Origin: a bacterium
GTDB taxonomy: Bacteria > UBP15 > UBA6099 > JAJRTR01
Assembly (NCBI GenBank): GCA_024278215.1
Contig: JAJRTR010000074.1
Span: forward strand, 1-23,827
DNA length: 23,827 nt
Reading direction: 5' to 3'
Numbering within the stretch: position 1 is the first letter of the stretch; every line of letters starts with the position of its first letter. The notes below the pieces were generated by a model. It saw nothing but the letters and a program-made list of their open reading frames with translations. It made no database searches and had not been told where the DNA came from. Both the position numbers and the translations under genes were made by a program. This document shows positions 3,218-21,164 of this stretch, piece by piece.

Positions 3218-4678
3218 CTATGTCGGAGTGAAGGAATCGAAAATGAAGGGGTGGAAACAAATCCAGCGCGGGTCGTTCGAGAATCCGGAGATACTTCTGA
3301 TTACGGATTCGAAGTGAGGGAACCTGTATCCAAGATCATTCTCTGTGGATTTCTCGCTGCGTTTACTGTGATATACCATGTAATGTTCGAGTGAAGTTCG
3401 GAGAGGCTCGAAGCCGTGTTTTTTCGGTTCGAGCGCCCAAGGGGACAGGGGCTCGATCTCGATAGGCATCGTGATGATCGTCAGATGTTTGAAACGCCGC
3501 AACAGGTTTCGAGCGAATTTCAGTCCCCGCATGAGTTCCTCGAGAGGTTCCTGGGGAAGCGGGGAGTAGTAGAAGACTGTGGGCAGGCCTGATTTTTCTG
3601 TTTCAAGCAAGAGCTTTCTTAAATCATCATCGGAAAAGCCGGAGGGACAGAATCGTTTTCTGGCGGTTTCGGTGAATGCCGTCGGTGAGAAAACCAGTTG
3701 GGACGTCGAGATATCGAATGTATCGGCGAAATCCTTAAAAAAACTCACGTCGGGCACAGTGTTGTAGTATTCGAAAATCATGCCGGGTTTCAATGACGAC
3801 TTGCGAATCAGTGAAAAACACTTCGAGTAGAAACCACGCTTGAAACCCGGTGGATGAAAACAGATATAGAATGTTCGAGTGTCATGGTTGCGGTTCATAT
3901 ATGTAATGTCGGAAGCTACGGCTTCGGGGCTGCGCATGGAAACGCCTGTACGCCGCGACAGAAGTGAATGTGCATGTGCGCCGCCGCCGCAGAAGGCGCA
4001 GTCGACCGTACATCCGCGCCCGATATAAAGATACCAGGTGCGCGCGGAGCGCGTCCATTTACCAAAGGTCTCGGACGAAGCGTCATAAAAGTAACGACCG
4101 CGGTACAGTTCATGGTTCTGCAGTAATGTGATTCTGGTATGAGAGTACATATCAAGTTGATGGCCCGGAGCATGATAATCGACAGGGTTGTGCACGGGCA
4201 TGCCGTCGGGAGTGCGCCATGAGATATTTGAAACAGTCCCGGGATGTGTGAATTTATTCCGAAGAAGCTGGTCCAGCGCCTGCTCCGATTCGCCGCGTAT
4301 GATGTAATCCACGTGTTGCCAATCGGCCATGATTGATTCGGCGAAGGCTGTGGCCGTGATCCCGCCCAGCAGGACGCGTGTATCGGGACAGGCGCGTTTT
4401 ACTGCTCGTGACATTTCGTAAACTTCGAAAAGCTGCTTATGCCAGTGCAGCGCGAAGCAGACAAGGTCCGGCGGTTCGCCGGCCAGTTTTTCCTCCAGAC
4501 GATATCCGGAGTCCCTCAGCGTTTCGATCCCCGTGTGAATAATCCTGACATTTTGTGAATACCGCGTGGCCAGGTCCGCGAGGCTCCAGATGCCGAGCGG
4601 CGGGATCATGACCTGGTATTGGAGCAACTTCCCACGGTCTTCTATCCGTTTTGGAGTATGAATAAACCGAATGTTCAT
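3218..4678 (-). CDS. Radical-SAM protein with N-terminal B12-binding-type domain
   Basis: The 486-residue protein begins with a B12-binding-type Rossmann region (PPLGIWSLADLA at 26-37, DLVCFALHWHKQ at 71-82, TRVLLGGITATAF at 100-112, VDYIIRGESEQALDQLL at 123-139). The DxHxxG cobalamin-ligand motif is not evident, as in many members. The radical-SAM core follows with YIGRGCTVDCAFCGGG, whose C223, C227 and C230 (CxxxCxxC) bind the 4Fe-4S cluster that cleaves S-adenosylmethionine. This class methylates or rearranges unactivated carbons, but I cannot name a substrate. The ATG at 4676-4678 has no clear Shine-Dalgarno. It diverges from the double radical-SAM gene at 5012, suggesting a shared pathway and shared control. 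Confidence 0.85.
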   Translation of the reverse strand: MNIRFIHTPKRIEDRGKLLQYQVMIPPLGIWSLADLATRYSQNVRIIHTGIETLRDSGYRLEEKLAGEPPDLVCFALHWHKQLFEVYEMSRAVKRACPDTRVLLGGITATAFAESIMADWQHVDYIIRGESEQALDQLLRNKFTHPGTVSNISWRTPDGMPVHNPVDYHAPGHQLDMYSHTRITLLQNHELYRGRYFYDASSETFGKWTRSARTWYLYIGRGCTVDCAFCGGGAHAHSLLSRRTGVSMRSPEAVASDITYMNRNHDTRTFYICFHPPGFKRGFYSKCFSLIRKSSLKPGMIFEYYNTVPDVSFFKDFADTFDISTSQLVFSPTAFTETARKRFCPSGFSDDDLRKLLLETEKSGLPTVFYYSPLPQEPLEELMRGLKFARNLLRRFKHLTIITMPIEIEPLSPWALEPKKHGFEPLRTSLEHYMVYHSKRSEKSTENDLGYRFPHFESVIRSISGFSNDPRWICFHPFIFDSFTPT

Positions 4679-4962: not shown

Positions 4963-5011
4963 ATAGTGGTTTTCCCCGGAAACAGATTATTGCCGAACAG
5001 GAGTGCAATGA

Positions 5012-7429
5012 GTGTCGAACCATAAATTCTCTGATATCGTCTATGTACTGTCTCTTGACGGCTTTTGCAATAATAACTGCAATATCTGCATTTACCGGGA
5101 AAGAGAACGCAAGCGGAGCAGGCCGGCGAACGACTTGCTGAAGGAGGCAGAGGAGGCACGCCCTTATTTCAACGGGTACATCGTTTCGGATGGGGAGCCG
5201 ACTCTTATCGACGATCTGCCCGGACTGCTGCGGGGCTTGAAGAAGCTGTCGCCGGACGTGCTTCAGGTTCATACCAACGCGCGTATGCTTGTGTATAAAG
5301 ATTACGCCGCCCGCCTTCTGGACGTCGAAGGCGTCGATTATGTGGTTCGGGTCTATAGTTTCAATCCTGATGTTCACGACTCGATTACGGGTATGCCCGG
5401 AAGTTGTCTTCAGACACTTGAAGGTGTCGGCAATATAGCTTCATTTCATTCCGGGGTCGGGCTCCATGTGGAGATACCTGTTGCCGGGATCAACTTCAGG
5501 GATGTGCCGAAAACGATCGCTGTCTGCCGGCGGCTGGGCGCACAGAGTATCATCATATCCGGCGGGTTCCCGGCGGCGGGCGATTCAGGATTAACAGAAA
5601 GAGATATATCCGTGCTTGTCGAGCATATCGAGTCCGCCGAACGCGAAGGACCGGTGACGACAGCTTGCGTGCGGGACGATCGTTCTATCAGACCGTATGT
5701 CGAATCGCAGCGCAGCGGGAAGTCCGGTCTCCGGGTCTGCGGCACCGATACGAACAATCCGCATGTTTTCAGAAAGTGCCGGGATGACAGGATAAGCACA
5801 TCCTTTATCTTTATGCCCTTCAGTCTGAGCAAACAAGGGGAGCACATTGTGCAAGCGCCCATGTCGGCGGGCGGGATGAAGGGCTTCCTGGACAAACTCG
5901 GCTATCCTTCCGGCATAATAGACCTGGACAGGAGATGGAAGACCCGCTCTGAATTGTCGGGCGGCCCGGCCCTGGAAGCGGGACCGGGGGAGGAAAACTT
6001 TGCAGAGCAGAATGAAACCATATCGCGAAAAGAGGCCGAATCGGTTTTCAGAGAACTGCTGCCGCCTGAAGAACTGCGCGGCGCATCCGTGTTGTGGATA
6101 TGTTCGCGCTATGAACTGTTGCAGTGTTTTGATGCCGCTACTCAAGTGGAACTTGCAATGGGACTCGGGGACTGCATAAGGAAAACCGGGCCGGAATCTC
6201 CTGTTGTGTTCGAGTATATCGATCAGGTGCCGGAAGAACGATTCGAAGGTCTGGCCGATTATGTTTTTGACGGCTCGCCATTCTGGATTTACAGTGTCGG
6301 CGGGCTTCTCAACATGATGGAATACGGCGACCGGTCGGCCGCCGCGATTTCCGGCAATATTTCTTCGCCGGGAATGCCGGACTCACAATTTGATATATCG
6401 TTGATTCCTGCCCCTGCCTTCGGCAACCTCGCAATGTGCGATTATCTTGTTCCCATGCCGGGTAAACTGAAGTCATTTTTCGAAAGTGAAAATATGATGT
6501 TCGACAGAGAGAATCTCGTCGGTCGTTTTTGTTACTATATAAGCAGGGGTTGCAACTTCGACTGTGCTTTCTGCGGCAACCCCGGTATATTCCGGAAAAT
6601 GGACCCTGTGCAAGCGGCTGAGAGTATCGCTATGATGGCCCGTGAGACAGGGTTAAACAATGTGGAAATATTGTCTCGATCAATCAATATTGATGAGGCC
6701 TTCCTCGAACAGTTCTGCGACGCACTGGCGAATATCGGAGCGCCGGTCCTGTGGAAGGCTGTCGCGCGGCCCACCTTCAGCGATCACAGGATTCCGGAGA
6801 AGATGCGCGCGGCCGGCTGCGTCATGCTGACTTTTGCCGTCGAAAGCGGCAGCGATGCCGTGCTGAATAATATGAGAAAAGGCTTCACAGCGGCGGAGTC
6901 CGAAAAAGCGCTTTCTCTTGCCGCCGGCGCCGGGATAGTTACCTGCGTCAATATCCTGAGCGGGTTCCCATACGAACAAACTTCCGATGTGGATGCAACA
7001 GTCTCATATATCGAACGCAACTCGGACAATATAGATTTTATTGCGAGCCACAAAAGTTTCCTCCTGCGGAATCCCGGTCCCGACATCGCCGGAGTCAGAC
7101 CGCGTGTTGCAGGCAATTCCGCTGGTTTTGTCATACCCTACGATGAAACGGGCGGGCGCGAATGGGAGGAAATACTTCGCTGTAAGCAATACGCTTATGT
7201 TCGGATCGAAAAAAAGATCAACGAACTGCTCGCGTTCATTTCCATTGAAGACGATCTCGCTGTTTTCAACATATTCAGCCTGGGTTTTGGGAGAGATACT
7301 GTCGGACGTTATATTGAATACTGCCGGAATCAAGGGCATAAATACCAGCCGCAGCCGGGCGGCGACTCGATAGATGAGCAGATAATTCGTTGTTTCCGGA
7401 AGGGATACCACCTGCCGCATCAATACTGA
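5012..7429 (+). CDS. Double radical-SAM protein (two CxxxCxxC domains in one chain)
   Basis: This 805-residue protein has two separate radical-SAM signatures. The first is LSLDGFCNNNCNICIY with C19, C23 and C26, followed by SDGEPTL (59-65), a variant of the GGEP SAM-binding motif, giving a MoaA/SPASM-like fold. A second Cys pair lies at C243 and C256. Residues about 340-500 look like a degenerate B12-binding-type region (VLWICSRYELL, ADYVFDGSP). The second core is YYISRGCNFDCAFCGNPGIF with C514, C518 and C521, then CVMLTFAVESGSDAVLNNMRKG (603-624), typical of Elp3/B12-type enzymes. The start is a GTG at 5012: AGGAG at 4999-5003 is 8 nt upstream, and the nearby ATG at 5008 stops after five codons. 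The substrate is unknown; the gene diverges from another radical-SAM enzyme. Confidence 0.85.
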   Translation: MSNHKFSDIVYVLSLDGFCNNNCNICIYRERERKRSRPANDLLKEAEEARPYFNGYIVSDGEPTLIDDLPGLLRGLKKLSPDVLQVHTNARMLVYKDYAARLLDVEGVDYVVRVYSFNPDVHDSITGMPGSCLQTLEGVGNIASFHSGVGLHVEIPVAGINFRDVPKTIAVCRRLGAQSIIISGGFPAAGDSGLTERDISVLVEHIESAEREGPVTTACVRDDRSIRPYVESQRSGKSGLRVCGTDTNNPHVFRKCRDDRISTSFIFMPFSLSKQGEHIVQAPMSAGGMKGFLDKLGYPSGIIDLDRRWKTRSELSGGPALEAGPGEENFAEQNETISRKEAESVFRELLPPEELRGASVLWICSRYELLQCFDAATQVELAMGLGDCIRKTGPESPVVFEYIDQVPEERFEGLADYVFDGSPFWIYSVGGLLNMMEYGDRSAAAISGNISSPGMPDSQFDISLIPAPAFGNLAMCDYLVPMPGKLKSFFESENMMFDRENLVGRFCYYISRGCNFDCAFCGNPGIFRKMDPVQAAESIAMMARETGLNNVEILSRSINIDEAFLEQFCDALANIGAPVLWKAVARPTFSDHRIPEKMRAAGCVMLTFAVESGSDAVLNNMRKGFTAAESEKALSLAAGAGIVTCVNILSGFPYEQTSDVDATVSYIERNSDNIDFIASHKSFLLRNPGPDIAGVRPRVAGNSAGFVIPYDETGGREWEEILRCKQYAYVRIEKKINELLAFISIEDDLAVFNIFSLGFGRDTVGRYIEYCRNQGHKYQPQPGGDSIDEQIIRCFRKGYHLPHQY

Positions 7430-7511: not shown

Positions 7512-7587
7512 CATTCCCGAATGTTCTTTCGGGAATCAATGTTTCCGGATTTCTTTGTGAAAACTCCGGGCAATGAATCCCGGAGTT
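7512..7587. repeat. Cluster of three consecutive hairpins
   Basis: Hairpin one is attcccgaa / ttcgggaat (about 7512-7535, 6-nt loop). Hairpin two, 7545-7569, is a decayed copy of the ccggatttctttgtgagaaatccgg motif. Hairpin three, aactccggg (7562-7570) with cccggagtt (7579-7587), has a perfect 9-bp stem and overlaps the second, so the two are alternatives. No T-run follows on the plus strand. They sit just beside repeat copy 2 and probably reflect repeated insertion or decay of the same family. Confidence 0.5.
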
Positions 7588-7637
7588 GTTAAAAAAATGC
7601 CGGGGTATGCCTTGAAGCGATCATGTCATCGTAATAC

Positions 7638-7800
7638 GAGCCGATTGCAAAATTATGTTCGTAGCGAGGTCAAACGAAATTTTTCAGAAGCAAGGCGGAG
7701 GTGCAAAATCCTCGCAGGCGTACTCGTAGAGTACGTTGAGGACGATTTTGTGCCGACAACGCAGCTATCCCGGATTTCTCACAAAGAAATCCGGAAAATC
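7638..7800. repeat. Dispersed palindromic repeat, copy 2 (inverted, one end lost)
   Basis: It begins gagccgattgcaaaattatg and runs antiparallel to copy 1. The core is a long stem: caaaatc (7704-7710) pairs with gattttg (7744-7750), enclosing cgtactc (7719-7725) and gagtacg (7729-7735) around a 3-nt loop. It ends with the perfect ccggatttct / agaaatccgg hairpin (7770-7794). The distal gagcc-type inverted end seen in copies 1 and 3 is missing. The open frame across it (7573-7923) is repeat sequence, not a gene. I see nothing recognisable in 7804-8011. Confidence 0.8.
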
Positions 7801-8011
7801 GCTATAACGCCTGTTCTACCGCGTTGCGGCGGCGATTCGGGATTGGTCACATACCTGCATATTGCGCAAGAGGCCGGCCGGCTGGCTGCTCCCGCACCAC
7901 TCACTTGCCGCGCCTTGTATTAACAGGCATTCTCCCGATTTTTGGCCCGCATTGGTGAAATATGCGGAGAGTGATTTATACATATTCGGGCAGGAACAGG
8001 TTTTCGCACAG

Positions 8012-8605
8012 CTACTTTTCAAGTGGTGCTGAAATATATTCCGCTACCAACAGCGCGTCGGCTCTCGCTGTGTCGTGTTTTTCGATGTCGCCTCGTGCGT
8101 CGATCTGTCTGTAATAGAGGCTGTGTTCACGGTCAAATTCGATGTCGAGAATACTGTAAAAACACTTCATAAGCTGATCTATTCCGGCAAACATAGTTGT
8201 GCCTTTAGTGCCGCCTACAGTTAGCAGCAGTCCTCTGTGACGTCTATCATCGTCCCTGACAGGTTTGTTCAACACAAACTTTTTCGCCCATATACACTGG
8301 AAGCGGTCGATAAAGGATTTCATTTGCGCGGGTACATTCATAAAGAAAAGCGGTGCTGCCATAATCACCCAGTCGGCACCGAGCACACTATCATAAATAT
8401 CCTGCATTTCGTCGTCGATAACACAAAGTCCTTTTTTCAGGCAGCCGCCGCATTCTATACATGGGGAAATATCAAGTTCCGATGTCCTGATCTTTTCCGT
8501 GTCCGCGCCGCGCCCAGCGGCATCGTCGAGAATCCAGTCAAGGAGCTTTTCGGTGTTCCCCCTTTTGCGAGGGCTTCCTGCTATTCCGACAATCTTGTTT
8601 CTCAT
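8012..8605 (-). CDS. Iron-sulfur flavoprotein / NAD(P)H-dependent FMN reductase family
   Basis: This 197-residue flavodoxin-fold protein opens with IVGIAGSPRKRGNTEKLLDWIL, the FMN phosphate-binding loop of the FMN-reductase superfamily. At about residues 49-61 comes CIECGGCLKKGLC, a CxxCxxCxxxxxC cluster motif typical of iron-sulfur flavoproteins of anaerobes. Then follow the DEMQDIYDSVLGADWVIMAAPLFF block and PAQMKSFIDRFQCIW. Such proteins pass electrons between reduced carriers and oxygen species or quinone-like acceptors; the physiological partner here is unknown. The ATG at 8603-8605 has GAGGA 8 nt upstream. It is the last gene of a leftward run behind two glycosyltransferases, with a 93-bp gap, so it may have its own promoter. 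Confidence 0.88.
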   Translation of the reverse strand: MRNKIVGIAGSPRKRGNTEKLLDWILDDAAGRGADTEKIRTSELDISPCIECGGCLKKGLCVIDDEMQDIYDSVLGADWVIMAAPLFFMNVPAQMKSFIDRFQCIWAKKFVLNKPVRDDDRRHRGLLLTVGGTKGTTMFAGIDQLMKCFYSILDIEFDREHSLYYRQIDARGDIEKHDTARADALLVAEYISAPLEK

Positions 8606-8698: not shown

Positions 8699-9835
8699 TT
8701 ATTTTTTTCCTGTTATAACATCCATATATTCTTTCATGATAACCTCGATATTATATTTCACAGCGGCATTATCACCAAACTGAACCCTGTTCAACGACGG
8801 CAACGCATCAATAGCGCGAAGTATTTCCCCGGCGAATGTTGTCGGCTCCTGGACATCGACGATCCAGCCGTTAACACCGTTTTCCACAATGTCGCGTGTG
8901 CCGCCGATAACCTCGTTGGACAGGACCGGAGTGCCGAGGCAGACGCTTTCCAGTACAACATTCGGCGAACCTTCAAGAAGAGATGTCAGCAGCAGCATAT
9001 CCGCATGTTTGATATATGGGTAAGGGTTTTCGATAAAACCCGCGAGCCGCACATGCCCGGAAAGTCCGAGTTCAGCTATCAGGGTTTCAAGCGCCGGCCT
9101 CATAAAGCCGTCTCCCACTATTGTAAGATGCAGGTCTTTTCGCCGACAGATACATTCCGCCATCGACTCCAGCAGGAAATCGTATCTTTTCACAGGAACC
9201 ATGCGTCCCACGGCGACGAGATTCACACCACCGGTTTTGTACGGATTGTCTGTCTGATCCGCAAGTCCGCAGACCCTTTCCGTATCCACAGGATTTGAAA
9301 TAACCCTGATTTTCGACTCGGCTACACCGCTGGAATGCACAAGATCATCGGCGGCGCTTCCTGAATTGCAAATAACCTTATCCGCCCGCGGATAAAGAAA
9401 TTTTGCGCATAATCTATATGCCGCGCCTGTCCATCCGCCGATCACGCCGGCCTCGACATTAGCGTCTATCCACTTGCTCAGAATAGTCGCTTCCCGCAGT
9501 ATGACACGAGTTTTTTTCGGGAAGAAAAATTTTGCGGCCAGTAAAGCATAGTTCATCTGCATCTGATTTGATACGACAACTTCGGGTTTGAGGGCTCTGA
9601 CCAGCTTGACCACCGCCGGAATGACATACCTGAACTTCGGCGACATCAGATGGATTGTTACGTCTTCGGGCACTTCTTTTTTCAAAGGACCGCTTTGATC
9701 CATCACGCATAGATGCGGTTCGTAAGCGCTCCTGTCCATCCATCGGATGCAGTTGACGATCACACGCTCCGCGCCGCCGCAGAAAAGTGTTCCCATGAAG
9801 AAAAGTATCCTGGGCCGCTCGACGACACCGCTCAT
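8699..9835 (-). CDS. Family 4 glycosyltransferase (GT-B fold)
   Basis: The 378-residue protein has the N-terminal acceptor-side motif FFMGTLFCGGAERVIVN and a C-terminal nucleotide-sugar domain: NLVAVGRMVPVKRYDFLLES, LTIVGDGFMRPALETL, VRLAGFIENPYPYIKHADMLLLTS and EGSPNVVLESVCLGTPVLS. The last contains the E-x7-E pair of retaining GT4 enzymes. It would transfer a sugar from a nucleotide donor to a glycan or lipid carrier in the cytoplasm; donor and linkage cannot be read from sequence. Its start overlaps the stop of the upstream glycosyltransferase by 4 bp (ATGA, 9832-9835), showing translational coupling. Confidence 0.92.
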   Translation of the reverse strand: MSGVVERPRILFFMGTLFCGGAERVIVNCIRWMDRSAYEPHLCVMDQSGPLKKEVPEDVTIHLMSPKFRYVIPAVVKLVRALKPEVVVSNQMQMNYALLAAKFFFPKKTRVILREATILSKWIDANVEAGVIGGWTGAAYRLCAKFLYPRADKVICNSGSAADDLVHSSGVAESKIRVISNPVDTERVCGLADQTDNPYKTGGVNLVAVGRMVPVKRYDFLLESMAECICRRKDLHLTIVGDGFMRPALETLIAELGLSGHVRLAGFIENPYPYIKHADMLLLTSLLEGSPNVVLESVCLGTPVLSNEVIGGTRDIVENGVNGWIVDVQEPTTFAGEILRAIDALPSLNRVQFGDNAAVKYNIEVIMKEYMDVITGKK

Positions 9836-11082
9836 GCGGACACCCCGCTTTTGTCCCGGATCAGCCTCAGGTAGAGTTCTTCGAGTTCATCCGCGATTTT
9901 ATTGTAGTCGCGAAACTTTTCGAGATATTCGCGGCCCTTCCCGCCCAGTTCCCGCGTCATTTCCCGGTTTGAAAAATACTCGATCATAGATTCGACATAT
10001 CCATCTACAGTGTGTGCTACAATCCGGCCTGCGCCCGATCCTTCGATCAGATGTTCCTGTTCCGGTATTGCGGAGCCGAGTACCGGGCGGGCCATCATGA
10101 ACGACTCGACGAGTTTTGTGGGGCTGCACGACATGAACGCAGGTATGAGCGGATATGGCGAGATTGTAAAATCCGACGCCCGGATAAGCGGAAACACATC
10201 GCCCCTGTAAACCTGTCCGGTAAAAACAACATTGTGTCGTATCCCGAGCCTGCTGCAAAGTTGTTTTAATTGTTCCATGTCGGCGGGCGCATCTCCACCG
10301 CCAATCATGAGCAGCATTGCATCGGGAATCTTTTTCAGGCAAACAGCGAAGGCTTCGATCAGAACATCCAGGCGGCGCGCCGACTTCATTGTTCCGAAAT
10401 ACGCCGCGACAGGCCTGTCGCCGAGCCCATATCTGCCGCGTACCGGCCCGGGGTCGATGTTTTCCGGCTTTATCGAACAGTCGAACCCCATCGGCAACAC
10501 CGACATGCGAGACGGGTCGCAGCCCATTTCCTCGAGTTCGGTTTTCATCACTTCGCTTACAGGGAAAATCCAGTCCGCTTTCGGCCTTAGACGTTTGACA
10601 ATCGAATTCTGTATCTCAGTCCTGATAATGCGTGGAACTCTTTTCGCGGAAGTGTCCAGACGGGCCGTCCTGCGTGATGAAAACCACAGCGCGAACGAAG
10701 CTTGAAATAGGAAAGGAATGCGGCACCTGTGCGCCGTCCTGCGGCCTGTCCACAGCGCCGCGATATCCGTATCCCAGTCGTTGCGCACCTGGACTACATC
10801 ATAGCGGCGGCTCTCGATCTGCTCGCGCAAAGCGGCAACCGCCTGAAGATGTGTGTGCCAGGCATCCGGTCGCCGCGGGTAAAGAAACGCCCTTGTACCT
10901 TTGATATCCACCTCTTTGATCCCCGCCTCCGGTTCATCATGGGGCAGCATCCACGTGACATGCCAGCCTCTCGCGGGCAATATTCTGATATACATATCTT
11001 CGAGCAGTGAATGCCCTACAGGGTGCCTCCTCGAAAACATCAGTATGTTTTTTCTCTGTTCTTTCAAAAGCAATGCAACCAT
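9832..11082 (-). CDS. Family 4-type glycosyltransferase
   Basis: The 416-residue GT-B protein has N-terminal RKNILMFSRRHPVGHSLLED, a central DVVQVRNDWDTDIAAL, and IFPVSEVMKTELEEMGCDPSRMSVLPMGFD. Its C-terminal donor domain has VAAYFGTMKSARRLDVLIEAF, LLMIGGGDAPADMEQL, NVVFTGQVYRGDVFPLIRASDFTISPYP and SPTKLVESFMMARPVLGS. It probably acts early in assembling the same glycan as its coupled downstream neighbour. The ATG at 11080-11082 lacks a good ribosome site; starting at M15 would cut into the first beta strand, so I keep the longer form. It diverges from the glycosyltransferase at 11332. Confidence 0.9.
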   Translation of the reverse strand: MVALLLKEQRKNILMFSRRHPVGHSLLEDMYIRILPARGWHVTWMLPHDEPEAGIKEVDIKGTRAFLYPRRPDAWHTHLQAVAALREQIESRRYDVVQVRNDWDTDIAALWTGRRTAHRCRIPFLFQASFALWFSSRRTARLDTSAKRVPRIIRTEIQNSIVKRLRPKADWIFPVSEVMKTELEEMGCDPSRMSVLPMGFDCSIKPENIDPGPVRGRYGLGDRPVAAYFGTMKSARRLDVLIEAFAVCLKKIPDAMLLMIGGGDAPADMEQLKQLCSRLGIRHNVVFTGQVYRGDVFPLIRASDFTISPYPLIPAFMSCSPTKLVESFMMARPVLGSAIPEQEHLIEGSGAGRIVAHTVDGYVESMIEYFSNREMTRELGGKGREYLEKFRDYNKIADELEELYLRLIRDKSGVSA

Positions 11083-11331
11083 TCACATAATTGGGAAATG
11101 GATTCCGATAATATTTACCGAAAAACAATCGGCGCAAACTCTTTCAGGAGAACATAATACAATAGCTCAATTCAGATCACAAATTTATTCAACGATTTGA
11201 ATAAGTCAATATACTGCACTACAGTATGAGTCTGAATAATGCGCATGACATTTCCACATTTTTGTAGTGTGAGATTCAAGTGACTGTCCCGGGTATTGCA
11301 ATGTGCGCGGAAAGGGTCGTCAAAGCAGTTA

Positions 11332-12549
11332 ATGAGTGAAGCGAATACCGACTACAGTGTTCTGACACTGATAGCCCGCCTGAATGTCGGCGGACCTGCC
11401 AAACACGTTATATGGATCACAAAAATGCTGCGCGATCGCGGACGTTCTGCGATGCTGGTGAGCGGGCGTGTGGAAGCAAACGAAGCGGATATGAACTACT
11501 TTGCTGAAGAAATGGGCGTAACCCCAGTCTATATAGAGGATATGGGAAGAAGCCTTACTTATAAAGATTTTTTCAACATAATTAAGTTCTACCGGATTCT
11601 GCGCCGTGAGAAGCCCGACATACTGCATACGCATACGGCAAAAGCAGGCACGGTGGGCAGAGTGGCCGCATTGCTGTACAGGCTGACAACAGGCAGGAGC
11701 GTCAGATGTGTGCACACCTTCCACGGACACACATTCAGGAACTACTGGAGCCCGCCTGTTACAAAGATATTTCTCTCGATCGAACGTTTCCTGGCAAGAT
11801 ATGCAACAGATATTATTGTGGCGATAAGCGATGGTTTGTTGAAAGAAATAAACCGGGAATTCGGCATTGGAAGGCGGGAACAATTCAGAGCAGTCCCGCT
11901 CGGGATATACTTCCACGAACTGGAACCATGCCCGGATTCCACGTCGGACGATGAAACGGTCGGCCCGAAGGATAAGTTGACAGTTGGCTACATAGGCCGT
12001 CTGGCCGACATAAAAAATGTAGGACTGTTCGTCGATGCGGTAAGTATTCTGAATGAAGAAGGCCGCGCGCACGGCGCGAAATTCGCAATAGTGGGAGACG
12101 GCAGCCTGCGCCATGACCTGGAGAAAAAAGTCAAGCGGCTCGGCATAAGTGAAATTGTCACTTTCACAGGAATGGTCGATAAGATAGCCGACATCTACAA
12201 CAATCTTGACGTTGTAATCATATCCTCGAATAATGAAGGCACGCCCACAACACTGATCGAGGGGATGGCGCTCGGGATACCTTTTGTGGCAACGTCGGTG
12301 GGCGGTGTGCCGGATATCGCGGGGCCGATGCGCGAGGAATGCTGCAGTTTTTCAATACACGATCACGGTATCATGACAGCGCCGTGCGACTCCCGCGCAT
12401 TCGCCGACGCCATAGAAAAACTGACCGGCGACGCGCAGCTTCGCGAATCGCTCGGCGCGGCGGGAAAAAAATTCGCAACAGAAAAGTTCTCACTCGAACG
12501 CATGGTTGACGATCTCGAAAATATCTATACTTCGCTGTTAAACAGATAG
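11332..12549 (+). CDS. Family 4 glycosyltransferase
   Basis: The product is 405 residues from the ATG at 11332 (MSEANTDYSVLTLIARL). The frame extends upstream to a TTG at 11296, but those 12 residues do not look like family sequence. Landmarks are LNVGGPAKHVIWITKML (Gly-rich acceptor loop), PDILHTHTAKAGTVGRVAALL, CVHTFHGHTFRNYW, DIIVAISDGLLKEI, LTVGYIGRLADIKNVGLFVDA, FAIVGDGSLRHDLEK and NNEGTPTTLIEGMALGIPFVATSVGGVPDI with the E-x7-E pair. This subgroup is common in capsule, O-antigen and exopolysaccharide loci. It is the only rightward glycosyltransferase here and converges on the next gene with 47 bp between stops. No good Shine-Dalgarno precedes the ATG. Confidence 0.93.
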   Translation: MSEANTDYSVLTLIARLNVGGPAKHVIWITKMLRDRGRSAMLVSGRVEANEADMNYFAEEMGVTPVYIEDMGRSLTYKDFFNIIKFYRILRREKPDILHTHTAKAGTVGRVAALLYRLTTGRSVRCVHTFHGHTFRNYWSPPVTKIFLSIERFLARYATDIIVAISDGLLKEINREFGIGRREQFRAVPLGIYFHELEPCPDSTSDDETVGPKDKLTVGYIGRLADIKNVGLFVDAVSILNEEGRAHGAKFAIVGDGSLRHDLEKKVKRLGISEIVTFTGMVDKIADIYNNLDVVIISSNNEGTPTTLIEGMALGIPFVATSVGGVPDIAGPMREECCSFSIHDHGIMTAPCDSRAFADAIEKLTGDAQLRESLGAAGKKFATEKFSLERMVDDLENIYTSLLNR

Positions 12550-12596
12550 AATCAAATGAATGCCGAGGATGGCTATGCGAAATTCGGGTCGGGAGA

Positions 12597-13679
12597 TCAG
12601 TCTGCAACGCGCTTGCCGGTTACGTTTTCGTAGATTTCAATATAGTCCGCAGCGACGTCATTCCAGCTTCGGACATCTGCGACATCAATCTCGGGCGGAT
12701 TATCGAGAACAGCCAGTAATATTCTTGCCATGTCTGCGACATCTCCGTAATTCACGAGTGCGCCGCGCCCGTCTGTTATCGCATCCTCATTGCCGCTGTC
12801 ATACGTTCCCACCGTGAAAGTGCCGCATGCGTTGGCTTCGAGATGTATCAGTCCGAAACCCTCGAAATAATATCTCTCGGACTTCGACGGAAGCACATTC
12901 AGTTTCGCACGCCGGTACAATCCGACAAGTTCATCTACTGAAACTTTCCCTGTAAATTCCGCATTTATTCCCTGTTTACTGATATAATCCGCCACTGCGC
13001 GATATTCATGATTGCCTTTATAGTCCCTATTGATATTGCCCACGATCAGGAGTTTTGCCTCGGGTTTTTTCCTGTTAACTTCGGCAAATGCTTCGAGAAT
13101 GAACCGTATCCCTTTTCTTCTTTTCAGGTTTCCCACAAAGAGAACAGTATCTGTTTTTTCGACATTCGGGTCCGGACAAAACTTTTTCTTGTCAACTCCG
13201 GGATTGACAACGTCGACATCGGCTTCCACCCTTTCTTCCGCCATTCTTTTCTTCGTATATTCACTGATCGAAACAACCCTGTCGGCTCCGGCGAAAGCTT
13301 CCCTGAATACCGGGTTTCTCGCTGGAAGAGTAATTGCATAGGTACCATTGGCGGTGATAACGTGCGGTATGTGCAGTTTTTGTGACAGCGCGTGCCCCAT
13401 GTCTGCCGAATTTTCAGTCATGGAATGTATCAGGTCGAACCTGCCGTCCGCGTTGCAGATGCTGATAACTTCACGAGTACGTTTCACATTTTTCATGATT
13501 CTATTAAGCAATATGTCCAAACGAGAAATGCCGAAACCTGTTCTCACAGGACTGACAATTCCTGCCGTTGCATACTCGACCCCGGCCTCGCCGATATGAC
13601 GGATCATATTCGACGCCTGGCAGCCCCACCCGTTATTCATATCCAGCGTAGATGTCAGAGCAATCACTTTCATACACAA
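12597..13679 (-). CDS. Family 4 glycosyltransferase
   Basis: The 360-residue protein reads VIALTSTLDMNNGWGCQASNMI, FDLIHSMTENSADMGHALSQ, IPHVITANGTYAI, ADRVVSISEYTKKRMAEE, VDVVNPGVDKKKFCPDP, TVLFVGNLKRRKGIRFILEA and KLLIVGNINRDYKGN. Its E-x7-E motif lies in YYFEGFGLIHLEANACGTF. This makes it a GT4 enzyme of unknown donor. Two starts compete: a TTG at 13677-13679 with AGGAG 6 nt upstream, or the ATG two codons later at 13671-13673 with 12-nt spacing. The ribosome site favours the TTG. It follows the methyltransferase by two bases, so they form one transcription unit. Confidence 0.9.
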   Translation of the reverse strand: MCMKVIALTSTLDMNNGWGCQASNMIRHIGEAGVEYATAGIVSPVRTGFGISRLDILLNRIMKNVKRTREVISICNADGRFDLIHSMTENSADMGHALSQKLHIPHVITANGTYAITLPARNPVFREAFAGADRVVSISEYTKKRMAEERVEADVDVVNPGVDKKKFCPDPNVEKTDTVLFVGNLKRRKGIRFILEAFAEVNRKKPEAKLLIVGNINRDYKGNHEYRAVADYISKQGINAEFTGKVSVDELVGLYRRAKLNVLPSKSERYYFEGFGLIHLEANACGTFTVGTYDSGNEDAITDGRGALVNYGDVADMARILLAVLDNPPEIDVADVRSWNDVAADYIEIYENVTGKRVAD

Positions 13680-13681
13680 TT

Positions 13682-14398
13682 TCAGCTCCTGCTTTTTTCC
13701 AAGTCGATCTCAACGATAATCCCCATCGAAAACATTGAACCCCATACCCGGTTCAGCAGCGGTATCCCCTCATAGCAATGCAGCGTGCTGAATTCTAAAT
13801 AACCAAGGTCTCGCAGCCACCTGCGCATATCGGCGAGCGTCCAGTACCGAAGATGCTCACCGGGATGAACCCGCCACTGCATAGGGAAACGACCTGATAA
13901 AAGTCTTATCCTGTAAGGGAAATATCCACTGTTCGGGACACTGAAAATGATAGACCTGCGAGCTTTTGTTTCGATTATTCGCAAAAACTTCTCGGGATTT
14001 TTCATGTGCTCGATAACCTCGAGCAGAAGGATGTGATCCGCTTCAGGAAGCGATTCCACAGATTCAAAGTCCTCGAAATCCAGCTTCTGCGCATCGAATC
14101 CCTGATCCTTCAAACATCCGATAACAACATCAGAGTTCTCGACTGCAATTGCCCTGATGTTTTTTCTTTCCCTGATATGTCTTAATATGCTGCCGTCGCC
14201 GCAGCCGATGTCCAGCACCGCCGCGCCGTTCTCGATTCGCCCGATAATCCAATCCGCTCGATATTCCCCGAATCTGTTCAGCGCCGACGCGCCTTCTTTA
14301 CGCCTGCTTCTCCAGTAAGTGTCATAATCCACCTCTTCTAAAGACATGGTCGGGTTATGAAAAATCAGCCTCACCATCTCGCGCCATCGCTGACGCAT
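13682..14398 (-). CDS. SAM-dependent methyltransferase, MetW-like
   Basis: The class I methyltransferase core is clear: YDTYWRSRRKEG near the start, AAVLDIGCGDGSILRHI (SAM-binding motif I), IRAIAVENSDVVIGCLKDQG, DFEDFESVESLPEADHILLLEVIEHMKNPEKFLR, SIIFSVPNSGYFPYRIRLL, and HLRYWTLADMRRWLRDLGY. The LLEVIEHMxNPExFL pattern is that of MetW and of sugar or ubiquinone-type O-methyltransferases. Next to four glycosyltransferases it more likely methylates a sugar than acts in methionine synthesis. The frame is open to 14632, but the first 78 residues look non-coding. I use the ATG at 14396-14398; 14377 and 14347 are also possible, and none has a strong Shine-Dalgarno. Confidence 0.85.
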   Translation of the reverse strand: MRQRWREMVRLIFHNPTMSLEEVDYDTYWRSRRKEGASALNRFGEYRADWIIGRIENGAAVLDIGCGDGSILRHIRERKNIRAIAVENSDVVIGCLKDQGFDAQKLDFEDFESVESLPEADHILLLEVIEHMKNPEKFLRIIETKARRSIIFSVPNSGYFPYRIRLLSGRFPMQWRVHPGEHLRYWTLADMRRWLRDLGYLEFSTLHCYEGIPLLNRVWGSMFSMGIIVEIDLEKSRS

Positions 14399-14691
14399 TG
14401 TTCTTAAAAACTTAATCAAATATATCGATATCTCCTTGAAAACCAATCGATTTCGAGGGGCCTGAAAAATCCACCATTCAAGAACGATATGTCGACGAAC
14501 AGCACCTTCATAATTCCTCACGAATGCAATTAACGAACAGTCTACCACACAGTCACAGCGATATACAATAAATCCGGATAGCTCCGACACACGAAACACA
14601 CAGTACCGTGATCGAGAATCCCGCTGATTCATTCAGGGAGACTTACCTTAACTCTTGACTTATTCCACCTTGCTTGATAAGTTTACAAACT

Positions 14692-15654
14692 ATGCCGAAA
14701 ACAGTATTCATAACAGGCGTCGCAGGCTTTATAGGAAGCCGGGTGGCGGAAAAACTGCTCGCGCGCGGCGATAAGGTAATCGGTATCGACAACATGAACG
14801 ACTACTACCCGGTCAGCCTTAAAAAGGCGCGTCTCGAACGGATACAACACCCGAACCTTAGATTCGAACTCTGCGACATTGCGGATTATGAAAAACTGCG
14901 CGACACTATCAGGCGCGAGCCGCCCACTCATGTCTGCCACCTCGCGGCGCAGGCGGGCGTCCGTTACTCTCTCGAAAACCCCTTCATATACCAAAAAACA
15001 AACGTCGAGGGCTTTCTGAACCTGCTGGAGATTATGCGGGAATTCGAACCCGAGAATTTCGTCTACGCTTCCAGCTCCAGCGTGTACGGAAAGAACAAGA
15101 AAACCCCATTTTCCGTCGAAGACAATGTGGATATGCCGATATCATTGTATGCGGCCACGAAAAAAACATCCGAACTCTTCGCACACGTCTATCACCATCT
15201 ATACGGCATGAAAACAACCGGACTGCGATTCTTCACAGTCTACGGTCCGTGGGGCAGGCCCGACATGGCATGTTATAAATTCGCGCTGTTGATAATGCAG
15301 GGCAAACCCATTCCTCTTTTCAACAATGGCGACATGTACAGGGACTTCACTTATATAGACGACATCGTAAGCGGCGTACTCGCATCAATCGACACTCCTT
15401 TCGACTACGAGATATTTAACCTTGGCAACTCGAAAACCGAGAAGCTCATGTCGTTTGTCGAGCTTATAGAGAAATATCTCGGACGCGAGGCCCGGAAAGA
15501 TATGCTCCCCATGCAGCCGGGAGACGTGCATAAAACAAGCGCGAATATTGATAAATCAAGAAAGCTGCTCGGCTTTCAACCGCAGACAGGAATCAAAGAA
15601 GGACTCAAGCACTTCTTCGATTGGTTCAGGGACTATCACTCGGATATGTTCTGA
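14692..15654 (+). CDS. NAD-dependent sugar epimerase, UDP-glucuronate 4-epimerase-like
   Basis: This short-chain dehydrogenase/reductase sugar nucleotide enzyme has FITGVAGFIGSRVAE (GxxGxxG NAD site, residues 9-15), GIDNMNDYYPVSLKKARL, CHLAAQAGVRYSLENP, YASSSSVYG, YAATKK with catalytic Y153 and K157, and LRFFTVYGPWGRPDMA. The NDYY..LK, AGVRYS and WGRPDMA signatures are those of UDP-GlcA 4-epimerases (CapI/LpsL type), which interconvert UDP-glucuronate and UDP-galacturonate. It would supply UDP-GalA for the polysaccharide made by the adjacent glycosyltransferases. The length of 320 residues is normal. I start at the ATG of MPKTVFITG; an in-frame TTG at 14674 adds six unlikely residues. It diverges from the methyltransferase. 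Confidence 0.93.
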   Translation: MPKTVFITGVAGFIGSRVAEKLLARGDKVIGIDNMNDYYPVSLKKARLERIQHPNLRFELCDIADYEKLRDTIRREPPTHVCHLAAQAGVRYSLENPFIYQKTNVEGFLNLLEIMREFEPENFVYASSSSVYGKNKKTPFSVEDNVDMPISLYAATKKTSELFAHVYHHLYGMKTTGLRFFTVYGPWGRPDMACYKFALLIMQGKPIPLFNNGDMYRDFTYIDDIVSGVLASIDTPFDYEIFNLGNSKTEKLMSFVELIEKYLGREARKDMLPMQPGDVHKTSANIDKSRKLLGFQPQTGIKEGLKHFFDWFRDYHSDMF

Positions 15655-16594: not shown

Positions 16595-18088
16595 ATGTTT
16601 TCATTATCAAGATTTTCAAAGCTATATATTTTTCCTGTTTCTATACTTATTTTCTCGGTGATTGTAATAACTGGATGCGTAAAACAGAAATCCACTAAAA
16701 TGAACAGGCCGAATATACTCCTGATAACCATCGATGCCCAGCGTGCGGACCAGATCGGTTGTTATGGTGAAAAAGTCACCAGGACTCCTGCAATCGATAG
16801 ATTATGCGAATCGGGAATCGTTTTCGAGCAGGCATTCCCTTCAATACCATGGACAACTCCATCCATGTTTTCACTTTTTACGTCAAGGTTTCCGAAATCT
16901 TATACATATAAAACGAATGTAAATAAATTGATGAGGCGAAAAGGCTTTGAAACTATTGCAAAGATTATGAAAAAGAATAAATACCTGACGATTGGAATTT
17001 CAGGTAGTCCAATAATGAGAAAAGGAACGGGTTACGCGCTTGGATTTGATACTTTTCTGGATCCCGGAGATGAGCAGATGCTGCCTTCGGGATACACTGC
17101 CGCTTCCGCGCTGGTTGAATTGGAGAATCTCGCTGATAATGAGAGCATAATCTCCGGGGAAAAGAATTTTTTCTTCTGGATTCATTTTATGGATCCTCAT
17201 GGTCCATACACACCTCCGGATCATTTTAAAATATATGAAAACTCGAGTAACAAGATTACTAAGCTTGCAGACAGGTGGGTTTTGGATCATGCCGATTGGA
17301 GAAAAATTGCAGTAGAAGCTCGTGATGGAGACGAGACGCTCAGCGATGCTCAACCAAGAAATTATATGTCTGAAGTGACGTATACTGATTTTTGTGTTGA
17401 TCTGGTCGTTACACGGTTGAAAGAGTTGTCCCTGTCAGAGAATACGATAATCATTCTCACTGCTGATCACGGGAACAGTTTTGGGAGACATGATAATCCT
17501 TTTGGATATGCCTACACGCTCTATCAGGATGTGACACGAGTTCCTCTTATTATAGTACCCCCGGATCATGGCAATGCCGGAGTAAGAATAAAGCATGCAG
17601 TTTCCACGCTTTCCATAAAGCCTACCATCATTGAACTTGCCGGTATAAACCCCGACCAATACGTATGCGAGGGGGAATCTCTGGTCCCCTATCTCAAAGG
17701 CATCGTTCCTCATAATCCACCGCTTGTATATTCTCAGACTTTGATTCTTTATGATGAAAAACAGAGAGACAACAAGCTTCGGCGCTTCAAACCCGGCACG
17801 AAACAAAGACACATGATTGTAGGCGAATCAGGGAAATGGGTCATGGTTACAGATGGAAGATTGAAGTTCATTTACATTCCCACTCCTGACGGACCGGAGT
17901 TTGAATTGTATGATCTTAACAAGGACCCTGATGAGATGACAAATATTGTTAATGAAAACCCTGAAAAGGCAAAATATTTTCAGAAAAAAACAATGAAGTT
18001 TCTCAAAGAAAAAAAGCCGATAAAATCTACGATGGAAATAGATGCTGAGTCCGAGAAAAGACTCAAGTCTCTTGGTTATATTGAATAG
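16595..18088 (+). CDS. Sulfatase/alkaline-phosphatase superfamily lipoprotein with Thr at the nucleophile site
   Basis: A signal peptide ends in the lipobox ITGC (C28), so the mature protein is probably a lipoprotein outside the cytoplasm. RPNILLITIDAQRADQIGCYG (38-58) carries the first metal Asp (D47). HFMDPHGPYTPP (197-208) and LTADHGNSFGRHDN (288-301, D291/H292) supply the other metal ligands. YDLNKDPDEMTNIV is the usual sulfatase tail. The expected formylglycine motif C/S-x-P-x-R reads T87-T-P-S-M91, so the oxidisable Cys/Ser and the Arg are both missing. Thr is the nucleophile in LtaS and phosphoethanolamine transferases of this superfamily, so a phosphoryl-type transfer or hydrolysis is plausible. 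GAGGGG lies 8 nt upstream of the ATG. The gene is visibly AT-richer than its neighbours, suggesting a separate origin. Confidence 0.88.
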   Translation: MFSLSRFSKLYIFPVSILIFSVIVITGCVKQKSTKMNRPNILLITIDAQRADQIGCYGEKVTRTPAIDRLCESGIVFEQAFPSIPWTTPSMFSLFTSRFPKSYTYKTNVNKLMRRKGFETIAKIMKKNKYLTIGISGSPIMRKGTGYALGFDTFLDPGDEQMLPSGYTAASALVELENLADNESIISGEKNFFFWIHFMDPHGPYTPPDHFKIYENSSNKITKLADRWVLDHADWRKIAVEARDGDETLSDAQPRNYMSEVTYTDFCVDLVVTRLKELSLSENTIIILTADHGNSFGRHDNPFGYAYTLYQDVTRVPLIIVPPDHGNAGVRIKHAVSTLSIKPTIIELAGINPDQYVCEGESLVPYLKGIVPHNPPLVYSQTLILYDEKQRDNKLRRFKPGTKQRHMIVGESGKWVMVTDGRLKFIYIPTPDGPEFELYDLNKDPDEMTNIVNENPEKAKYFQKKTMKFLKEKKPIKSTMEIDAESEKRLKSLGYIE

Positions 18089-18570: not shown

Positions 18571-20988
18571 TCACTGGCTATTGAGTTCAGACACTGCCAC
18601 CGATGTGTTCACCTCGTCGGTAATGGTTTCATCGGCTCTGCACTCCGGCGTGTAGCTTCCGGCGGAGCTGTATGTGCAATCCATGCGGATCGTGCCCGAT
18701 GCGAATTCCTCCCAGGACGAAGCCGAGCCACAGCGCCCCTCGAGTTTTTCGTATGAGCCCGCAAGGATCGTGCATGTGAGCTGGAAGGCATTGGTTGTAT
18801 AGCCCGACGACGGGTAAACGGTGGCCTTGACGAGCGGATAGCCATTTGCGCACCTGAAGCCCAGATATGAGAAGAAAGAGCCGGGCAGCGACTGCACCCT
18901 GTGTGTGATACGCAGATATTGAGCGTTGTCGTTGAACGAACCGCCGCGCGCTACGCGGTGCGTCCCCGTGTCGGGGCCGCGTGGGTCTTCCTGCGAATCC
19001 GAAGTATAGGCGTCGTAAATGTCGAATACCCATTCCCATACGTTTCCGGCCATGTCCAGCGCGCCGTTGCCGCTCGCGCCCGCCGGGTAATAGCCGACCG
19101 GTGTCGTGTCGTTGTCGTAGCTATCGCCGCTGTTGGCGTAATTTGCTTCCGGGGCGGTCTCGTCGATCTGCGCGCCCCACGGATACCTTATGCCGCTCCC
19201 GCCGCCTGCCGCGTACTCCCATTCGGCCTCTGTCGGCAGGCGACCGCCCACCCAGTCGCAATAGGTCTTCGCCTGGTCCCAGTTCACGTTGACTACCGGG
19301 AAATCGTCGTATGTCGTATCGCCGTAATATGTCAGCCGGGTTTCCGATTTCGTTTCCTGCGGCTCCGTACAGAAACCGGTGTCCACACAACGCTTGTATT
19401 CTTTATTTGTAACCTCATACATCTGGATGCTGTATTTCGACACAGTCACCGAATGCGAAGGTTTCTCGTATTCATTACAGAAGCTGTCCGATGTCGCGCA
19501 GCCCATCGAGAACCCGCCGCCGCCGATGTCGATCCATTTGTTGAGGTCGACATTCGTACAGGTTGACCGGGTGGTGCCGGGATAAACGCACGTGTCGACC
19601 GTGCTCGTGGCGCTGTCGTCGCAGTCGCTGTCCTGCTCGCAGGCGATAGCGCAGTTGCCGATGCAGAGTGTGAGGTCCGTGCTGCCGGTGAGCGAGTCAC
19701 GGCACGAGTCGATTGTCGCTGTTGCCGAATACTGACCGTTCAGGTAGCCCCGCACCTGCCATGCCGAGTATTCGGGCGCACTGTTGAACTGAGCGTAGCC
19801 GTCGTATGTGACCATACCGGCATACTTCCAGCCGCTGCCCGTCTCCGCCTCGACATACGCTCCGATGACCGGGTTGTTGTTCTCGTCCACAAAGTAGATT
19901 GTCGGCTTGCCGAATTCGCAGCTTCCCACTTTCCAGTCGAGATTGAATGTAGTCAGATGCGTGGTAGTGAAATACGTGTAGAAACCGTCCGCGTCCTGCC
20001 CGACCTCCGCGAGCATGGGCGACGAACCTTCGGTTTCCACGACCCATGCGCCGGTATCTTCGTCGTAAGTGAAAACAGGAATCATGTCGCCGGCGGCAAG
20101 CGGCAGGCCGGTCTCCGGATTCGTTATACCGTCCGGGATCCGCATCTTTACAAGCGCTGTCGCACCCTCCGCGAACCCTGTCACATCCGTTCCGTCCGCG
20201 CGCGTGAGCGAGATGGTTATGAAGCCCGCCGTTATGAGCGTGCCCTCTCCTGAAAGACCGTTGCCGGTGTCGCTCGATGTTGTGAACTCGCCGGGAAAAA
20301 GCGCGAGGTCCGCCGCGCTCGTCGGGTCGCCGTATACGATCTCTCCGGTTATCGTTCCTGTAGCGCCGAGCACTTCCGCGGCGGAGAGGCTGCCCGTTTC
20401 GCCAAGTGTAAACTCGACATCCGCCGCCCCGCCGCCGCTCGCAGGTGTGCTGAATGTCACTACCTGGACATCTTCCGTTATGTTCACCGCGCAGCGGGCT
20501 ACCGTCAGCCCCGAACCCTGCTCCGTGACAGGTTCCGCCGTTGCTTCCGCCGTCGATCCGTCTGCATATTCAATGCGCGCCTGTGTCGCGCCCGCGCTTG
20601 TGGACGGTTTCCTTTTCATTACCAGCTCGGCGGAATGTGTGTTGTTGTCGAGTGTCCTCTCGAAAACCCGCACAGTGTGAAAAGCTGTGTAATAGCCGCC
20701 CCTGCTCAGTTCGATAACAACAGGTGTTCCCGTTTGCGCCGGAGTGCCCTGCACGGCGATAGTGAAGCTGCCGTCTGCGCCGGTTTTCAGGATGGATTGC
20801 CCGCCGTTCACACCGACCTCGACGTCCGAAACGGCGTTGCCGTCAGTGTCTTTCACTATTCCGGCAACGATGTATGATGTCCTGACTGAAGCAACCGGCG
20901 AAGTCGAAGAACCGCCGCCGCACCCGGCAATGATTGCAACTATTGATAAAAACATAATGACCGCCGCAGTTACACGCGCTCGTGTCAT
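18571..20988 (-). CDS. Large lipoprotein with SUMF1/FGE-like domain and carboxypeptidase-regulatory-like domain
   Basis: The 805-residue product starts at the ATG at 20986-20988: GGAG lies 9 nt upstream and the signal peptide is then normal length, ending in the lipobox IAGC (C23). The frame is open to 21030. Order of parts: a carboxypeptidase-regulatory-like beta domain (about 35-125, VAGIVKDTDGNAVSDVEV); a middle region with TGLPLAAGDMIPVFTYDEDTG and TTTHLTTFNLDW; a second beta domain; a Cys-rich linker CEQDSDCDDSATSTVDTC; a SUMF1 domain (about 485-713: GRLPTEAEWEYAAGG, ALDMAGNVWEWVFD, RVARGGSFNDNAQYLRITHR, LGFRCA); and an Ig-like end. The Cys pair that makes formylglycine in true FGE is absent, so a structural or ligand-binding role is more likely. 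It converges on the sulfatase-like gene. Confidence 0.88.
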   Translation of the reverse strand: MTRARVTAAVIMFLSIVAIIAGCGGGSSTSPVASVRTSYIVAGIVKDTDGNAVSDVEVGVNGGQSILKTGADGSFTIAVQGTPAQTGTPVVIELSRGGYYTAFHTVRVFERTLDNNTHSAELVMKRKPSTSAGATQARIEYADGSTAEATAEPVTEQGSGLTVARCAVNITEDVQVVTFSTPASGGGAADVEFTLGETGSLSAAEVLGATGTITGEIVYGDPTSAADLALFPGEFTTSSDTGNGLSGEGTLITAGFITISLTRADGTDVTGFAEGATALVKMRIPDGITNPETGLPLAAGDMIPVFTYDEDTGAWVVETEGSSPMLAEVGQDADGFYTYFTTTHLTTFNLDWKVGSCEFGKPTIYFVDENNNPVIGAYVEAETGSGWKYAGMVTYDGYAQFNSAPEYSAWQVRGYLNGQYSATATIDSCRDSLTGSTDLTLCIGNCAIACEQDSDCDDSATSTVDTCVYPGTTRSTCTNVDLNKWIDIGGGGFSMGCATSDSFCNEYEKPSHSVTVSKYSIQMYEVTNKEYKRCVDTGFCTEPQETKSETRLTYYGDTTYDDFPVVNVNWDQAKTYCDWVGGRLPTEAEWEYAAGGGSGIRYPWGAQIDETAPEANYANSGDSYDNDTTPVGYYPAGASGNGALDMAGNVWEWVFDIYDAYTSDSQEDPRGPDTGTHRVARGGSFNDNAQYLRITHRVQSLPGSFFSYLGFRCANGYPLVKATVYPSSGYTTNAFQLTCTILAGSYEKLEGRCGSASSWEEFASGTIRMDCTYSSAGSYTPECRADETITDEVNTSVAVSELNSQ

Positions 20989-21164
20989 ACAGGCACACTC
21001 CGAATCTATTGTGTATCTTTTTGCGTCCATAATGAAAAAAAGCCGTTTCAGATTTTATTTTTATTTCTGTAATTAAGGTGTGTCTTGCAGATAAAATAAT
21101 AACACAGTAATATTTGTGAGGCAATGAAACGGGAATACGCAAGCATCTGTTCGTCTTAAAAACA

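Follow-up and report, generated by a model that had tools for sequence, protein, structure and literature searches.

A single open reading frame of 805 amino acids, here referred to as P0001 (positions 5012..7429, + strand), carries two intact radical-SAM cluster motifs and, in both its sequence and its structure models, two radical-SAM barrels on either side of a B12-binding-type domain that has lost its cobalamin loop. The gene lies in a stretch of DNA of 23,827 nucleotides that was analysed as a whole (the window). A first-pass annotation had proposed a layout in which a worn B12-binding-type domain lies between two radical-SAM cores, and sequence and models alike back it. Radical-SAM enzymes normally contain one radical core per chain, with FbiC as a rare named two-core case, and the P0001 layout is a new variation on the multi-core type that FbiC exemplifies. 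The reading favoured here, with somewhat less than even confidence, is that P0001 would be a bifunctional enzyme with two radical steps on a single substrate, which may be a sugar from the glycosyltransferase cluster nearby.

The gene starts with a GTG codon at 5012, 8 nt downstream of the GGAG of a likely ribosome-binding site (AGGAG, 4999..5003, + strand, by direct reading). The two CxxxCxxC motifs at residues 19-26 and 514-521, as well as the SDGEPTL (59-65) and FAVESGSD (608-615) segments, are present on this one frame just as the first-pass annotation described them. The first triad reads C19 N N N C23 N I C26 (5066..5089, + strand) and the second C514 N F D C518 A F C521 (6551..6574, + strand). 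In 20,000 shuffles of P0001 with its own letters, at least one CxxxCxxC motif was obtained in 1.6% and two in 0.005%, and the presence of two is thus very unlikely to be due to chance. PF04055 is matched twice, i.e., by each half when scanned alone (49.7 bits for the N-terminal and 54.9 bits for the C-terminal half, against a cut-off of 29.5), and GC3 is even along the three parts of the gene (0.62/0.59/0.58).

It had been suggested to split the protein at about residue 335; the domain border lies instead near residue 258-262. Five regions are distinguished, all on the + strand, namely, I) an N-terminal radical-SAM core of the SPASM/MoaA/HxsC-like type (residues 1-220, 5012..5671), based on Pfam, the model, and Foldseek; II) a linker (residues 220-262, 5669..5797) with C243 and C256, a remnant of an auxiliary-cluster (SPASM/twitch) region; III) a B12-binding-type Rossmann domain with its tail (residues 263-500, 5798..6511), recognised by modelled strands and helices and by alignments, with no Pfam match; IV) a C-terminal radical-SAM core of the B12-radical-SAM type (residues 501-690, 6512..7081), based on Pfam, pLDDT, and the alignment with AprD4; and V) a mostly helical C-terminal region (residues 691-805, 7082..7426), modelled with low confidence. 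According to both alignments and models, the C-terminal module includes residues 263-500 as its B12-type domain.

The first-pass annotation had put forward conservation of both cysteine triads among homologues as a check. No homologue of the same layout was found among the matches listed; in half-wise alignments, the first triad is invariant across 44/44 sequences and the second across 57 sequences. P0001 also retains T88-N89 in the N core and E611 in the C core. D60 of the N core stands where 41 of the 44 rows have glycine. Of the auxiliary-cluster cysteines of SPASM/twitch proteins, P0001 has only C243, which aligns with a cysteine in 32/44 rows, and C256, without a CxxC, and Pfam finds no SPASM domain in the protein. 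The N-terminal half is best read as a SPASM-lineage core with a reduced auxiliary-cluster region.

Both halves were modelled by AlphaFold as radical-SAM barrels. The N half was modelled separately because N-type rows fell onto the C core in a joint alignment, which was rejected for this purpose. Its model, built from 44 sequences, is a barrel with pLDDT >85 over residues 11-180, and its best PDB matches in Foldseek include SuiB, SkfB, DesII, BlsE, and NifB. The full-length model, built from 57 sequences, has a mean pLDDT of 63, with the N half poorly resolved because only three rows covered it. In this model, a Rossmann-type domain starts at residue 263, and the second barrel follows at about residue 506, with pLDDT >85 across most of 511-680. 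Residues 260-741 of this model match AprD4 (Z 23.1 over 384 residues, 17% identity) as well as OxsB, MgmA, and TsrM (Z ~22), in agreement with the best PDB sequence matches of P0001, which are AprD4 and MgmA. Fold similarity alone does not show what the substrate of P0001 may be.

In alignments of 12 and 57 sequences, the middle region of P0001 lines up with B12-binding domains, beginning at strand 1 (FIFMPF...APMSAGGMKGFLDKLGYPSGIIDLD). In the loop after strand 4, P0001 alone has no glycine, and at least one is found in all other 56 of the 57 rows; the GEGE motif of the B12 domain is replaced by DGSP, and a few relatives also deviate from GEGE. The loop after strand 3 is longer in P0001 than in its aligned relatives, and in one reviewed class the residue below the cobalt sits in the loop after strand 3 (PMC13331322). 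When the middle was scanned separately, no B12-binding Pfam match was obtained, and profile-profile comparison of this stretch alone is weak (probability 1.2%, P 0.044). The full-length model does contain a five-stranded Rossmann domain ahead of the C core, a B12-type fold towards which it is possibly biased, since the AlphaFold input alignment had already placed B12 domains there. With both the loop glycine and the GEGE motif lost, P0001 is probably without cobalamin, as far as its sequence can tell. It is another candidate for a B12-type domain without its cofactor, and lets one ask what the role of such a domain is once cobalamin is gone.

As all six cluster cysteines are intact, the sequence favours two working cores. 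We infer that each core would bind a [4Fe-4S] cluster and SAM of its own and generate a separate 5'-deoxyadenosyl radical, and that the two would act sequentially on the same substrate. AprD4, a radical-SAM 1,2-diol dehydratase, is not known to depend on cobalamin, and the C core of P0001 should likewise run without cobalamin because the corrinoid-binding loop of its Rossmann domain is lost. The most likely substrate would be a sugar unit or a nucleotide sugar from the neighbouring glycosyltransferase cluster, and electrons would come from a flavoprotein.

The glycan cluster comprises four GT4-type glycosyltransferases, a methyltransferase, and an NAD-sugar epimerase (8699..15654). It starts 1.3 kb from P0001 on the opposite strand, so that the two are not in one operon. 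BlsE acts on a sugar. Among the other fold matches, AprD4 has an aminoglycoside as substrate (PMC5461906) and DesII a TDP-sugar (PMC11434129). By analogy with these sugar-acting fold matches, and given the neighbouring glycan cluster, a carbohydrate would be the best single guess for the substrate of P0001, albeit one that is less likely than not. An NADPH-dependent FMN reductase/flavodoxin-fold protein (8012..8605, - strand; PF03358, 85.3 bits) is a possible electron donor. On the other side, the divergent neighbour at 3218..4678 (- strand) encodes a single B12-binding/radical-SAM protein that is TIGR04190-like, below the cut-off, and has a 30% identical relative in genome G005. Elsewhere in the window, a DtxR-type regulator (1629-2084) adjoins a Fur-FeoA fusion regulator (2286-2999), forming an iron-control pair upstream, and a sulfatase gene (16595-18088) lies near a gene (18571-21030) whose large lipoprotein-like product ends in a formylglycine-generating-enzyme domain. 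An interspersed, partly palindromic repeat of ~131 bp occurs at 433-596 and 7638-7768, with at least ~40 copies in the source genome at 91-96% identity; the ORF at 7573-7923 overlies this repeat and was rejected as a gene. No Rfam matches were found in the window.

Alternatively, only one of the cores may be catalytic, the other being a structural, substrate-binding, or regulatory remnant. The B12-type domain sets a precedent within P0001 for the loss of function domain by domain, and the N core would be a candidate for the same fate with its departure from GGEP at D60 and its incomplete set of auxiliary-cluster cysteines; retention of both triads, T88-N89, and E611 argues against this, and we consider it unlikely. 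A RiPP maturase, in which the SPASM-like N half would mature a peptide and the C half would make a second modification, is suggested by the peptide maturases SuiB and SkfB, the top fold matches of the N half, and by weak HxsC-type family scores. However, no convincing precursor-peptide gene adjoins P0001, and Pfam finds neither a SPASM nor a recognition domain in it, which makes this role improbable. It is marginally less probable still that P0001 is a B12-dependent methyltransferase whose C half binds cobalamin and methylates a substrate prepared by the N half: the C half has many sequence relatives among B12-radical-SAM families, several of which are methyltransferases, but P0001 has neither the glycine loop nor the GEGE motif, and its middle gave no B12-binding Pfam match, as opposed to 34.1 bits for the one module tested of the Lernaellota proteins described below.

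Genome searches covered 193 and then 386 genomes, mostly from other families of the domain, the second with the C half only. Among the matches listed from these ~600 genomes there is no relative of the same layout, and no other ORF matches P0001 from end to end. A scan of named genomes with the single protein gave no relative, and an alignment-based scan gave matches to the C half only; an alignment of 12 rows contained no segment of sufficient conservation for such a scan. The source genome contains 106 radical-SAM matches in 4.5 Mb, which in our judgement is an unusually rich set, and six ORFs with two cores, on contigs C6 (871 aa), C10 (758 aa), C30 (658 aa), C44 (P0001), C47 (753 aa), and C112 (502 aa). 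The first-pass view that tandem cores are uncommon is therefore too strong for this lineage, given these six ORFs and the chains of three to five cores found in other phyla. Two of the two-core families recur in the order, with 33-50% identity over most of the protein and both triads kept; none of the families conserved in the order has the layout of P0001. At another locus (C30, 1834-8077), the 658-aa two-core protein lies next to a fusion of NifH and nitrogenase component 1 (879 aa) and a further protein of 448 aa that resembles nitrogenase component 1; the group may represent a nitrogenase-like reductase and its maturase. An accidental fusion without joint function, in which adjacent genes were joined by stop loss or assembly error, would fit a protein with no known orthologue from one fragmented genome assembly, but is very improbable in view of the 805 open codons with an even GC3 profile, an inter-domain border only a few residues long, and the conservation in the order of two-core families with other layouts.

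Among the matches listed, the C half has its best relatives in modules of giant proteins, which occur in all seven genomes of Ca. Lernaellota, the name that corresponds to FEN-1099 (PMC11382960). In six of the seven, a single ORF of ~2.3-2.6 kaa holds five triads, with an N-terminal SPASM-type core that precedes four B12-radical-SAM modules, and with 41-65% mutual identity over most of the length; the fen_1099 genome and G195 share the same 2527-aa ORF. In the seventh genome (G194), the five-core chain is distributed over three ORFs (1155, 671, and 535 aa). A second Lernaellota giant is ~1.9-2.1 kaa long, and in the fully read genomes its SPASM-type core comes last, after three modules. In two genomes of another phylum (that of G388), three-module B12-radical-SAM ORFs of 1583 and 1509 aa were found, and in G388 an 874-aa and a 701-aa ORF overlap and resemble one three-module chain with a shifted frame. 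A search of the open-paper literature found no published description of such giant multi-core proteins. P0001 was placed beside MiaB-like long branches in a first tree, which was rejected, and was unplaced in a second tree without them (branch 2.49); no claim is therefore made that it descends from the Lernaellota proteins. It is conceivable, though rather unlikely, that poly-radical-SAM proteins are a general, unrecognised group of modular enzymes with 2-5 cores per chain in several uncultured phyla, which would carry out ordered radical steps on a single bound substrate and of which P0001 would be the smallest mixed version. Together with the two-core families of the order and the three- to five-core proteins from two other phyla, P0001 offers a testable set for the question of ordered radical reactions on a single substrate inside one protein.

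Compared with known systems, FbiC is not known to have a B12-type domain, unlike P0001, in which one forms the middle. What FbiC (FO synthase; a CofG-CofH fusion) shares with P0001 is a pair of radical-SAM cores on a single chain; in FbiC, each core has its own radical (PMC11917521). The first-pass annotation knew of no named family with this layout; a family with the exact order of domains was not found either, but FbiC/FO synthase is a known two-core enzyme (PMC11917521). CofG and CofH models are absent from the best 25 of 44 NCBIfam matches of P0001 (E up to 10), and the CofH C-terminal Pfam domain is not among its matches listed. AprD4 resembles P0001 in its Rossmann domain and radical-SAM core of the B12 type, as reflected in the fold match to residues 260-741, whereas it has one core and an aligned motif of CX3CX3C, against CX3CX2C and an extra N-terminal core in P0001. 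PhpK/TIGR04479, BchE, MgmA, OxsB, and TsrM share the module type and fold of the C half but are single-core; P0001 scores far under every cut-off of the B12-radical-SAM family models (best 67.8 of 600 bits). The Lernaellota five-core proteins differ from P0001 in having four modules rather than one, in retaining the glycine loops, in the presence of a SPASM domain (38.2 bits, one tested), and in an N core that is 15% identical to that of P0001 in the alignment. They nevertheless begin, as P0001 does, with a SPASM-type core that is followed by B12-radical-SAM modules, and the second of these modules ranks with the nearest listed relatives of the P0001 C half, with 36-38% identity over ~180-210 aa in several of the proteins.
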